From positions 1-64,000 of the forward strand of contig CAMCVV010000006.1 of the NCBI GenBank assembly GCA_945881905.1: 64,000 bases of DNA, given 5' to 3'. A program made the position numbers and the translations under genes. Source of the stretch: Paenibacillus alvei. GTDB taxonomy: Bacteria > Bacillota > Bacilli > Paenibacillales > NBRC-103111. This document shows, one piece after another, positions 44,902 to 48,639 of the stretch. The notes under the pieces were generated by a model that worked only from the letters and a program-made list of their open reading frames with translations, did no database searches and was not told the DNA's origin. How positions within the stretch are numbered: the first letter of the stretch is position 1; each line of letters opens with the position of its first letter.

Positions 44902-45315
44902 ATTCCTCTACTCCTTCTGAATCACATTATTCTTGATCAAACCAAATATGTGAAGTAGTCCAGCATTGATTTCACGCGATGGATCTAACTCATCCTCACT
45001 TATGATCCGTCTCAGCATATCATTCTCTAGGCGAAACCTCAATGCTGATCCAATACGTGTACAGCCACTATATAGAAGAGAAGCAAGACTTCCATCCAAG
45101 TAGCGACCGTATTACTCGTTAAGGCAAGCCCGAATGCGGATTTCTTGAATACTCCTAACATCATAAGATTCTTAGTTGAGTCTAGTGAATCATGAATATA
45201 TCCCGAAGTGGAATGCTTGATTTTTACGTGTTATCACTTATCTTTCTGAGCCCATTTGATGTGTCATCATCTGAGCTCTACCTTTCGTATTTCCTATTCA
45301 TACTGCACTTTCAGG
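44902..45315. other. Intergenic region without a supported gene
   Basis: About 410 bases. Two short minus-strand frames, 44908-45099 and 45039-45161 (the latter with a hydrophobic VATWMEVLLLFYIVAV stretch), lack ribosome binding sites and do not resemble a family I know; they may be relics of a membrane protein gene. Confidence 0.45.
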
Positions 45316-45359
45316 CAAAAAAATAACCGCGCATCAGTGTATACATCAATCCTGCGCGA
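45316..45359 (-). terminator. Terminator of the nitroreductase gene
   Basis: On the minus strand CGCGCA (45358-45353) pairs with TGCGCG (45333-45328), followed by a TATTTTTTT run (to 45316). Confidence 0.75.
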
Positions 45360-45397
45360 TCTCATATATGTATTCCAAACGGATCCTTTCCTTTCTT

Positions 45398-46024
45398 TTA
45401 CTCAAATTTATTCCAAACAATCACATCATCAACGTCAAAACGCGAGCTCTTATACCCCGGCTTCAGCGACTTCCCAAGCGCAATCAGCATCACAGGCGTG
45501 TACCGGCTTGGAATATCAAACTTCTCCACGAATGCAGCAAAATTTACCCCGCGCATCGGGCACGTATCATAGCCCATTGCACGTGCAGTCAGCATCAACT
45601 GCATAGAGGCGAGTGAAGCATTCAAAAATGCTTCGTCACGTGCTATTTGCGGATTGACATAGGCTCTGTTAATCTGATTGACTAACTGGCTCTTGATCTC
45701 GGACGTGATCCGCCCCTGAGCAACTGCTTCACTGTAAATGAGCTCAGCATTGCCGTTCGCTTCGAGATCGCCCAACACTGCAATAACGACAGATGCCTCG
45801 ACCACTTGCTTCTGGCCATATGCAATCGGCAGAAGCTGTTCTTTTTGCGCCTGTTCATCGAACACGAGAAACTTCCACTGTTGCAAATTCCACGACGACG
45901 GCGCTTGTTGTGTCACCGTCAGTAGTTGCCTGATTTCATCCTTGCTTATTTGATGTGAGGCATCATACGCCTTCACCGAGCGGCGCGAGGATACCACATC
46001 AAAAAAATTCAATTGATTCGACAT
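45398..46024 (-). CDS. Nitroreductase family FMN oxidoreductase
   Basis: A 208-residue FMN enzyme. SSRRSVKAYDASHQIS near the N-terminus and TQQAPSSWNLQQWKFLVF form the FMN-binding residues, and ARAMGYDTCPMRGV with a C-terminal MLIALGKSLKPGYKSSRF matches the family. It reduces quinones, nitro compounds or flavin. AGGAGG is 7 bases from ATG 46024. Its base composition is visibly richer in G and C than neighbouring genes, a hint of lateral transfer. It lies downstream of the HxlR regulator on the same strand, with a 17-base palindrome at 46081 in between. Confidence 0.92.
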   Translation of the reverse strand: MSNQLNFFDVVSSRRSVKAYDASHQISKDEIRQLLTVTQQAPSSWNLQQWKFLVFDEQAQKEQLLPIAYGQKQVVEASVVIAVLGDLEANGNAELIYSEAVAQGRITSEIKSQLVNQINRAYVNPQIARDEAFLNASLASMQLMLTARAMGYDTCPMRGVNFAAFVEKFDIPSRYTPVMLIALGKSLKPGYKSSRFDVDDVIVWNKFE

Positions 46025-46080
46025 ATTCAAACCTCCTAATTGATACGCTATCATTTACGCGGGAAAATTCGTCGTTTTGG

Positions 46081-46097
46081 TGAATTTCATAAATTCA
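46081..46097. promoter_or_regulatory. 17-base palindrome upstream of the nitroreductase gene
   Basis: TGAATTTCATAAATTCA is a perfect palindrome around one central base, 57 bases before the nitroreductase start. It may be an operator; its sequence differs from the putative HxlR site at 46739. Confidence 0.4.
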
Positions 46098-46286
46098 TGC
46101 CTTCATTCTTTAATGTTGAATTTCAAAGTCATTCATCTATTCTCTTGAATCATTAAATTCCGCACTGAATACATTCAAATATGGAATGATCTTGATCAAT
46201 TATGATAATGCCTGTGCATGGATAGCAGCTCACGGACGAAGAGTGAAGTCATCTTATTATGACCTAAATCACGATCGTGCGAGCTT

Positions 46287-46640
46287 CTATTTCTTTGTAG
46301 TCACATTCACTTCAAGATCGGTTTCTTCAGGCAATTCAACCCACTGATAGGCCCAACCCGCAATCTCATGTAAAACAGGACCCAACGAATACCCTTTCCC
46401 TGTCAGTTCGTACTCTACGCGAACTGGCACCTCCGCAAAAATAGTTCGCTTTACGATCCCTTCGCGTTCCAACATTTTTAATCGCTCAGATAATAACCTT
46501 CCACTAATTTGACAGGATTGCTCCAAAGTTACAAACCGCACTGGACCTTTCATTAAATAGTAAACAATCATCAGAATCCACTTCATCCCTAATAATTCAG
46601 AGGCACTTTCAATTCTGTCGCACATTTTTTCTTGTTGCAT
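46287..46640 (-). CDS. HxlR-family transcriptional regulator
   Basis: A winged-helix regulator of 117 residues with one cysteine near the N-terminus (KMCDRIESASELLGMKW), the position of the redox-sensing cysteine in YodB/CatR-type HxlR proteins. FVTLEQSCQISGRLLSERLKML is the recognition region and VRVEYELTGKGYSL the wing. ATG 46640 has GAGG 8 bases upstream. Promoter TTTGCA-N17-TATAAT precedes it. It is upstream of a nitroreductase and divergent from a CDGSH mini-gene, fitting control of a quinone/electrophile response (inference). Confidence 0.92.
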   Translation of the reverse strand: MQQEKMCDRIESASELLGMKWILMIVYYLMKGPVRFVTLEQSCQISGRLLSERLKMLEREGIVKRTIFAEVPVRVEYELTGKGYSLGPVLHEIAGWAYQWVELPEETDLEVNVTTKK

Positions 46641-46662
46641 AGCCATCACCTCACTTACATTC

Positions 46663-46691
46663 ATTATATGCCAAATTATGAAACGTGCAAA
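46663..46691 (-). promoter_or_regulatory. hxlR-like gene promoter
   Basis: Minus strand TATAAT (46668-46663) with TTTGCA about 17 bases upstream. Confidence 0.55.
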
Positions 46692-46698
46692 ATAAAAG

Positions 46699-46727
46699 TT
46701 GACAATTCGATCTAATTCATTTACTTT
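46699..46727 (+). promoter_or_regulatory. Promoter of the CDGSH gene
   Basis: TTGACA (46699-46704), a 17-base spacer, then TACTTT (46722-46727). The -10 is weak, and the repeats at 46721-46751 overlap it. Confidence 0.5.
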
Positions 46728-46751
46728 TATTATATTACTTACTTTTAGTAA
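46721..46751. promoter_or_regulatory. Putative HxlR operator
   Basis: TTACTTTTATTA (46721-46732) and the perfect palindrome TTACTTTTAGTAA (46739-46751) lie 18 bases apart, covering the -10 and transcription start of the CDGSH promoter. TTACT/AGTAA half-sites are common for HxlR-family regulators. Binding is inference. Confidence 0.5.
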
Positions 46752-46792
46752 TCTACTTTATTTAGATTTTTTCTCAAAAGGAGGGTTTGAAG

Positions 46793-46873
46793 ATGGCCCA
46801 ATGTCAATGTGGCAACACACAAAACGCAGAAGGAAATTGCGATGGATCTCACAATAACATCAAATCCAAGTAA
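46793..46873 (+). CDS. Minimal CDGSH iron-sulfur protein, 26 residues
   Basis: A tiny frame, MAQCQCGNTQNAEGN followed by CDGSHNNIKSK. The spacing Cys4-x-Cys6-x9-Cys16-Asp-Gly-Ser-His20 is the 3Cys-1His ligand set of CDGSH [2Fe-2S] domains. AAGGAGG stands 8-9 bases before the ATG, a promoter precedes and a hairpin terminator follows, so it looks like a genuine single-gene transcript. CDGSH proteins are normally 60-100 residues; this has only the cluster-binding loop and lacks the beta-strands before it. It is divergent from an HxlR regulator. Redox or Fe-S transfer role is inferred. Confidence 0.75.
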   Translation: MAQCQCGNTQNAEGNCDGSHNNIKSK

Positions 46874-46881
46874 GTCATTCG

Positions 46882-46920
46882 GAACTTCCGAGTCATGACG
46901 TTTGTGATTCGGAGTTCTTT
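46882..46920 (+). terminator. Terminator after the CDGSH gene
   Basis: GAACTTCCGAGTCA (46882-46895) pairs with TGATTCGGAGTTC (46905-46917) with one bulge and a G-U pair, then TTTG. Confidence 0.65.
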
Positions 46921-46946
46921 GTATTATGGGGATGTGTATCCATGGT

Positions 46947-48008
46947 TCAAGAAGCAATGATATTGGCCGCGACCTTATAGGCAGCGAATATGGCTCCATC
47001 CATATATCCCGGGTGAAGCGTAGCTGTTTCTGATCCTGAAATCAATAATTTATCGTCTAAGAACGCCTTTTGAAACCCGAGATGACCATTATTCTGATGC
47101 GCTGTTACATCATGCTCATATGGGAAAAAAGTCAACGGATCGACACGCCACATTTTTTCGTGATATGCAACTAGATGTTTAGCCTCTGCTCCGAAGTATG
47201 CAGTTAGCTGGGCAATCACTTTTTCTTTTCGTTCATCTTTTGGAAGTGTATAGGTACCGACATTCAAAAAACCTTTCAAAGCATAACCCTTATGATCAAA
47301 CGTACTGTGGTCATACATTTCTTGAACAATACTTGAATGACTAAATAACGCACCAGAAAAGTGATTTTCTCTCCAAAAAGGGGTTTTATATTCAACGGCA
47401 ATTTTTATTGATTCTCCCATCCAAGTGTGCGTTCTCTTAGCTAACTGCAAGAAAGATTCGGGAAGACTCGGTTCGAAGTTAATCGTCTGAACAAGCAAAT
47501 GTGGAGGCAATGTGGTGACTACTTTGTCAGCGAAATAAATGCCCCCCTTCGAATCTCTAACCTCTACTTGATTGTTATGCACATGAATAGCGGTCACTTG
47601 CTTATGTGTGATGATTCGTTGGCTTCCAATAATAGCAGCTAATTTATCGATTAATGTGATCGTTCCACCTGCGATGCGGTAAGAGGACTCTTCATATTCT
47701 GATATTTGAAATGTTTGAAGAGGAACCCCAGACATCATTTCCATCAATGATATGCCTTGTGTGTATTGTTCAAAATAGTTTAGTCCGAGTTCATTAATGA
47801 GCTCAAAAACAAGCTGGTGTTGCCTGCTAAACCAAGTGGCACCCATTTCCATTGTTACCGATGTAGCTCCCGTGATCGTTTCAATGCGACCACCCATTCG
47901 AGCATTCGCTTCTAAGACAATACATTCAATGCCTTTTTTTTGAAGCAAGTAGGCCGTCACTAAACCAGAAAGACCTGCCCCGATAATGATCACTTTGATT
48001 TTTTTCAT
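46947..48008 (-). CDS. Flavin-dependent amine oxidase family protein
   Basis: A 353-residue FAD protein of the monoamine oxidase fold. The N-terminal dinucleotide motif is IIIGAGLSGLVTAYLLQ, then LEANARMGGRI with the second glycine motif, and the C-terminal FAD motif is SGSETATLHPGYMDGA. It is somewhat shorter than typical MAO proteins (about 430), with a smaller substrate domain. ATG 48008 has GGAG 6 bases upstream. Convergent with the CDGSH gene and next to the rlmH end of the conserved block. Substrate unknown. Confidence 0.88.
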   Translation of the reverse strand: MKKIKVIIIGAGLSGLVTAYLLQKKGIECIVLEANARMGGRIETITGATSVTMEMGATWFSRQHQLVFELINELGLNYFEQYTQGISLMEMMSGVPLQTFQISEYEESSYRIAGGTITLIDKLAAIIGSQRIITHKQVTAIHVHNNQVEVRDSKGGIYFADKVVTTLPPHLLVQTINFEPSLPESFLQLAKRTHTWMGESIKIAVEYKTPFWRENHFSGALFSHSSIVQEMYDHSTFDHKGYALKGFLNVGTYTLPKDERKEKVIAQLTAYFGAEAKHLVAYHEKMWRVDPLTFFPYEHDVTAHQNNGHLGFQKAFLDDKLLISGSETATLHPGYMDGAIFAAYKVAANIIAS

Positions 48009-48156
48009 TTTGTGCTCCAATTCAGCAATTTAGGATGCTGTTCCTATTATTCTTGATTCTTCATTTGTACCCGCTGAACTCCTACTTCCATGTCCATAGC
48101 GCACCCAATCGATATTCGATTTGTGTCCCAGAGTGTATAATATGAGAAATTTCACT

Positions 48157-48639
48157 TCATTTGTGATAGGTTTCCCCACGATTAATTTTAAAAGCGCGAT
48201 AGATTTGCTCAATCAACACCAATCTCATTAACTGATGCGGGTAAGTCATTCGCCCGAATGAAAGTTGCTTATCTGCACGTTGAAGAACTTCATCTGATAG
48301 CCCAATCGATCCCCCAATAATAAATGCAACCTCACTTCGACCGTATACTGCTAATTCGTTAAGTTGTCGAGCGAATTGCTCGCTACTTAAGGTCTGACCA
48401 TGAATCGCAAGTGCAATGACGTATACGCCCTCTTGCAGTTGTGAAAGTACACGCTCTCCTTCCTTTCGCTGTATCTGTTTTTCAATTGCTGGGCTCATCT
48501 TATCTGGCGCTCGTTCTTCTGCAACTTCGATGACGCTTATTTTTCCATAGCCATTCAAACGTTTCACATATTCTGAAATTCCTCGCTCTAGATAATCCTC
48601 TTTCAATTTTCCAACAGCTATTAAAGATATATGCATCAT
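48157..48639 (-). CDS. rlmH: 23S rRNA (pseudouridine1915-N3)-methyltransferase RlmH
   Basis: A SPOUT methyltransferase of 160 residues that methylates pseudouridine 1915 in 23S rRNA on assembled ribosomes. [18 protein letters not shown] forms the trefoil knot and the C-terminal [18 protein letters not shown] and YHK end is invariant. GGAGG is 7-10 bases before two adjacent ATG codons. It closes the walR-htrA block, as in other Bacilli. Confidence 0.97.

Follow-up and report, generated by a model that had tools for sequence, protein, structure and literature searches.

The locus analysed here raises the question of whether an open reading frame of only 26 codons, which carries the ligand residues of CDGSH iron-sulfur proteins and lies divergent from the gene of an HxlR-type regulator, encodes a complete small protein and, if it does, what this protein might do in the cell. 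The frame (mini-CDGSH gene hereafter) is found in a window of 64,000 nucleotides from Paenibacillus alvei, and an earlier note on this stretch had proposed it to be a free-standing cluster loop with its own ribosome-binding site, promoter and terminator. The features of the locus are collected in Table 1.

Table 1. Position and basis of the features around the mini-CDGSH gene (window coordinates)
Feature	Position	Strand	Basis
Nitroreductase-family flavoenzyme (PF00881)	45398..46024	-	Pfam; homologues elsewhere with the same operator type
HxlR (MarR/DUF24) regulator, divergent from the mini-CDGSH gene	46287..46664	-	PF01638, E = 3.6e-25; N-terminal Cys
Imperfect second operator half-copy TTTACTTTTATTAT	46720..46733	.	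Weak on its own
Palindrome TTACTTACTTTTAGTAA, putative HxlR operator	46735..46751	.	At the site of the relatives' CTTTAC-N4-GTAAGT
Shine-Dalgarno AAGGAGG	46778..46784	+	Window sequence; core kept in short orthologues
Mini-CDGSH peptide gene, 26 codons, MAQCQCGNTQNAEGNCDGSHNNIKSK	46793..46873 (ATG at 46793, stop ends 46873)	+	Frame, orthologues, codon selection
Hairpin terminator 3' of the mini-CDGSH gene	46881..46918	+	Stem and fold energy

The 26-codon frame and its conservation

Re-examination of the window reproduced exactly the coordinates of the frame and its residues C4, C6, C16, D17, G18, S19 and H20, and the AAGGAGG site stands where it had been claimed. The terminator was also recovered, with its stem at 46886-46914 in the window scan and a fold of 46875-46930 of -19.5 kcal/mol (z = -3.7). 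As regards the promoter, support in the window is weak, a sigma-70 scan having found none on the + strand, and orthologues have TTTACA-17-TATAAT upstream of the gene. A search of positions 45000-48500 against Rfam gave no match.

Relatives were collected by searching DNA for an ATG with CxCGx8CDG[S/T]H close to it, a procedure that misses forms with other N-termini or loops. Among the 105 genomes of the window's family, the motif with nine residues between the second and third cysteines (x9) occurs in 29 (28 besides the window's own), in every case as a free-standing frame of 25-26 codons; the form with eight residues (x8), free-standing and with a start codon at the equivalent place, was found in none of these 105 genomes, and the reversed-pattern controls gave 0 matches. 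The source genome measures 2.4 Mb with 99.6% completeness, and the other family genomes searched are mostly of 4-10 Mb. A wide scan of 84,980 species genomes with the pattern ATG-two codons-CxCG-x8-CDG[ST]H yielded 56 loci, distributed among Paenibacillus, Brevibacillus, Alkalihalobacillus, Bacillales MAGs, Nanopelagicales and one Cryomorphaceae MAG, and the same pattern matched 40 contigs of IMG/VR (L200-L239). The Nanopelagicales form, for example in Candidatus Planktophila, has 49 amino acids and is also present in several MAGs labelled otherwise. In a class sample of Bacteroidota the motif was present in 1 of 295 genomes, this being the query genome itself, and no match was obtained among plasmids when the peptide of the window was used as tblastn query. 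The free-standing CDGSH peptide is more general than first noted.

The mean pS and pN values were 0.70 and 0.12 for the 39 distinct short coding sequences of Bacilli, 0.44 and 0.04 for the actinobacterial sequences, and 0.49 and 0.13 for the short phage forms, part of the low pN being a consequence of the search itself, in which seven residues are fixed. Positions outside the pattern still vary mainly at third bases, and of 40 distinct short coding sequences all but one (39) have the Shine-Dalgarno core (GGAGG or AGGAG) ahead of their start codon. These patterns argue for strong purifying selection (about pS 0.7, pN 0.1) and indicate that the mini-CDGSH peptide is the product of a real gene, selectively conserved across three bacterial phyla and uncultivated phages, as the proposal of a conserved free-standing loop had implied. 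Neither of the two grounds for doubt named in the earlier note stood up to this comparison: frame and ribosome-binding site are both conserved in relatives, and a truncated or frameshifted longer gene is ruled out by a stop-to-stop frame of 35 codons, which leaves no longer frame of which the peptide could be the tail, together with the equal length of the orthologues. That the frame is a remnant or a chance occurrence with no functional gene, as its very small size and its score against the Pfam zf-CDGSH model (PF09360; 14.7 bits for a gathering cut-off of 29.5) might lead one to believe, is extremely improbable, given that conserved length, a Shine-Dalgarno site and selection on codons are seen in sequences from three phyla and from phages, and that the reversed-pattern controls were empty.

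The loop compared with known CDGSH domains

The consensus of all seven known CDGSH types reads CxC-x2-(S/T)-x3-P-hydrophobic-CDG(S/T/A)H, with a spacing of x8 (PMC3174974), and the mini-CDGSH loop follows the formula CxCGxTx4GxCDG[S/T]H. The ligands claimed for the peptide stand in the CDGSH order, but their spacing, CxC-x9-C, is not the known CxC-x8-C, a difference that the earlier note had missed along with the replacement of the conserved proline. The order of three cysteines and one histidine and the CDG[S/T]H end, shared with the CISD/NEET domains (types 1-7, PF09360), are common to the 57 distinct sequences collected and are fixed by the search pattern. Outside the pattern, a threonine at position 9 is invariant (57 of 57) and a glycine at position 14 is present in 47 of 57, position 3 being mostly K or Q. 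Since T9 lies three residues past the second cysteine, the position taken by S or T in every known CDGSH motif, it can be regarded as an independent sign of structural kinship.

Against this likeness, G14 and N15 stand where the known motif has its proline and hydrophobic residue, and the mini-CDGSH peptides have neither this proline nor the hydrophobic anchors of CISD/NEET proteins. Only three residues precede C4, leaving no room for the N-terminal strand or for the P motif of the beta-sandwich dimer, and no residues are available for the two strands common to all solved CDGSH structures. The peptides are mostly of 22-49 amino acids and, unlike CISD/NEET domains, score under the PF09360 cut-off. 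AlphaFold models of the 36- and 49-residue forms were of low confidence (mean pLDDT 68), and Foldseek with the 36-residue model found no match. Judged by sequence, the mini-CDGSH peptide resembles a CDGSH site by its ligands yet fails several features of membership. The family has probably been overlooked in genomes because it matches nothing in NCBIfam, has no confident match in PHROGs and falls below the Pfam cut-off.

Gene neighbourhoods and putative operators

The divergent gene was confirmed to encode an HxlR protein (Table 1) with the conserved N-terminal cysteine typical of redox-sensing members, and is one of only two HxlR genes in the source genome. Its translation likely starts downstream of 46664, at an internal ATG (MAMQQEK...) after a GAGGTGAT site, because the first ATG lies within reach of a -10-like TATAAT that overlaps it. 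We considered HxlR as a universal partner of the peptide and rejected this idea, as HxlR adjoins the window copy only among the 29 family copies. The hint was nevertheless fruitful, for the neighbourhoods across lineages point to quinone and catechol stress. By Pfam assignment, HxlR is divergent from a DoxX and mini-CDGSH pair in L066 and from a nitroreductase and mini-CDGSH pair in L088; L043 has DoxX, pirin, MarR, the peptide gene and an azoreductase-like flavoprotein; L034 and L035 have a LigB dioxygenase, DoxX and the peptide gene; and L036 and L094 have MarR and the peptide gene. In L082 the peptide gene accompanies a MarR gene and a two-domain protein of the dioxygenase superfamily, whose score does not reach the cut-off set for catechol 2,3-dioxygenase models. 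L043 and L082 belong to one Bacillales MAG, which holds two different mini-CDGSH copies. In the Cryomorphaceae MAG (L089, Bacteroidota) the mini-CDGSH sequence is the N-terminal part of a protein of 215 amino acids that continues into a YceI domain, and this fusion gene is divergent from HxlR with TTACTTTCTAGTAA between them. A nitroreductase-family gene lies downstream in 10 Paenibacillus loci, and six Nanopelagicales loci have DoxX/MauE-like membrane proteins within 1 kb (Pfam scores below cut-off).

The adjacent regulator is an HxlR protein in the window, L066, L088 and L089 and a MarR protein in L036, L043 and L082; many copies have none, and the copies of Brevibacillus and many of those of Paenibacillus and Nanopelagicales are without these neighbours altogether. 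Any such neighbour protein occurs within 1.3 kb of 0.8% of random positions (800 kb from two genomes of the window's family), a background that overstates the contrast because the query proteins were chosen after the neighbours had been seen. Bacterial mini-CDGSH genes often have as neighbours genes for the defence against quinones and catechols, and context in several lineages gives a quinone- or catechol-stress setting good support. In Bacillus subtilis, YodB and CatR of the HxlR family (DUF24) and the MarR-type MhqR control the defence against quinones through azoreductases, nitroreductases and ring-cleavage dioxygenases (PMC6798810), and CatD and MhqP are DoxX proteins (PMC7189620); the gene families and regulator types of catDE and the YodB-CatR-MhqR regulon are the same as those around mini-CDGSH. 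No CDGSH peptide was found described for this regulon in the literature searched, and full-text literature joining CDGSH to DoxX, HxlR or small-protein terms held nothing on this family.

The promoters of the gene carry palindromes that we predict to be operators of such regulators. In Paenibacillus copies a palindrome CTTTAC-N4-GTAAGT lies over the -35 box, and its putative counterpart in the window, TTACTTACTTTTAGTAA, has its only exact match in the source genome there; a scan of that genome for the operator with 3 mismatches gave no more matches than the reversed control. CTTTAC-N4-GTAAGT is found in five places in five whole genomes: three are at the mini-CDGSH gene, and another precedes the gene of a homologue of the window's nitroreductase. 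Six nitroreductase loci bear it or its CTTAAC variant, and a scan for a looser form gave a single match in 800 kb. Most Paenibacillus copies also have a Fur-like box (14-18 of 19 positions) about 45 bases upstream of the palindrome, present whichever direction the upstream gene points; the window copy is without it. Comparison with the MhqR operator (PMC6798810) revealed MhqR-like boxes, 14 of 18, at L036 and L082. The predicted arrangement in Paenibacillus recalls that of B. subtilis catDE, which is under Fur, CatR and YodB (PMC6212828), that is under Fur and HxlR-type control.

The viral copies have a different setting. Their peptides have 22-30 or 50-64 amino acids, the shortest being MAQCVCGKTKDENGNCDGSHNS, and lie mostly in holin/endolysin cassettes: 34 of 40 loci are near a 3TM holin (PF11351), an M15 peptidase (PF08291) or a putative membrane protein of 94 amino acids, and the ATG of the peptide often overlaps the holin stop codon. 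A search by tblastn with two phage forms among 50,697 phage records found no relatives. A link of the viral mini-CDGSH to lysis is conceivable and would not follow from a role in quinone stress.

Proposed function and rival explanations

With slightly better than even confidence, we consider that the mini-CDGSH peptide is best explained as a complete CDGSH-type loop protein, likely with a [2Fe-2S] cluster, that acts as a redox relay in quinone and catechol stress. The frame encodes a small protein that is complete in itself and would consist from end to end of a CDGSH-type metal-binding loop with lengthened spacing, the cluster being most likely held by C4, C6, C16 and H20, and perhaps bound only once the peptide has joined a partner or formed an oligomer. 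The peptide of Bacillota would belong to the response to quinones, catechols and electrophiles, its expression being released by repressors of the HxlR type (YodB/CatR-like) or the MhqR type, plus Fur in Paenibacillus, along with nitroreductases, azoreductase, DoxX proteins and ring-cleaving dioxygenases. Its most likely biochemical role would be that of a small redox relay, with reduced flavoenzymes as electron donors and quinones or an oxidised iron dioxygenase as acceptors; it might also protect or reactivate iron dioxygenases. Such a role has precedents in mitoNEET, which accepts electrons from FMNH2 and donates them to ubiquinone (PMC9490426), and in plant-type ferredoxins that reactivate catechol 2,3-dioxygenase (PMC2590616). 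The XylT/Fdx-type ferredoxins would be the analogue, as small [2Fe-2S] partners encoded with an extradiol dioxygenase (PMC2590616); they differ in their plant-type ferredoxin fold, with 134 amino acids in that operon, and in a sequence unrelated to mini-CDGSH. Cluster, regulation and redox role are all inferred here from sequence and context.

The iron-sulfur identity is plausible: the conserved ligands and T9 suggest a CDGSH-type site, most likely [2Fe-2S], and against it speak a loop longer by one residue and the loss of the proline and hydrophobic anchors present in every solved CDGSH site. The different spacing, together with three cysteines and one histidine among only 26 residues that lack a hydrophobic core, the additional Cys of the 56-residue phage forms and an induction context of thiol-reactive electrophiles, would suit a peptide that binds zinc or iron or buffers thiols, in the manner of metallothionein or as a sacrificial nucleophile for quinones. 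We regard this as unlikely, since a thiol trap would have no need of T9, D17, G18 and H20, which are invariant or nearly so (the last three being fixed by the pattern), and since the order CxC...CDG[S/T]H is that of CDGSH proteins. A function in quinone stress does not explain the presence of the phage copies in lysis cassettes. As a further alternative, the peptide might regulate or assist a small partner in the membrane or on DNA (DoxX, HxlR or a phage holin) and use its metal to sense redox state or iron instead of carrying electrons. Recurrent adjacency to DoxX and phage start codons that overlap the stop of the 3TM holin or just precede the M15 peptidase gene are in agreement with such a function, which we nonetheless judge rather improbable because the neighbours differ by lineage and no shared partner covers all copies.

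Returning to the loop protein with a redox role, the wider proposition that natural CDGSH peptides of 22-49 residues, with a spacing of their own, bind [2Fe-2S] without the known fold, serve quinone and catechol detoxification and have been taken by marine phages into lysis cassettes is more tentative, and we give it somewhat less than even credence. If 22-26 residues suffice to hold a CDGSH cluster in the living cell, the site could do without the known beta-sandwich, which would bear on the minimum size and origin of iron-sulfur proteins, and mini-CDGSH may be among the smallest natural ones. The role of bacterial CDGSH proteins is a long-standing question, and the neighbourhoods make it directly testable by pointing to stress from quinones and catechols and to defined partners among flavoenzymes, DoxX proteins and dioxygenases.

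The source genome also encodes a full-length CDGSH protein with the same ligand motif, which scores above the PF09360 cut-off. Also above this cut-off is a protein of about 200 residues (L103/L002, G000:C13:824-883), assigned by eye as YdeI/OmdA-like, which carries at its C-terminus a bare CDGSH loop, CTCGLSAKMPSCDGSH, with the x8 spacing.
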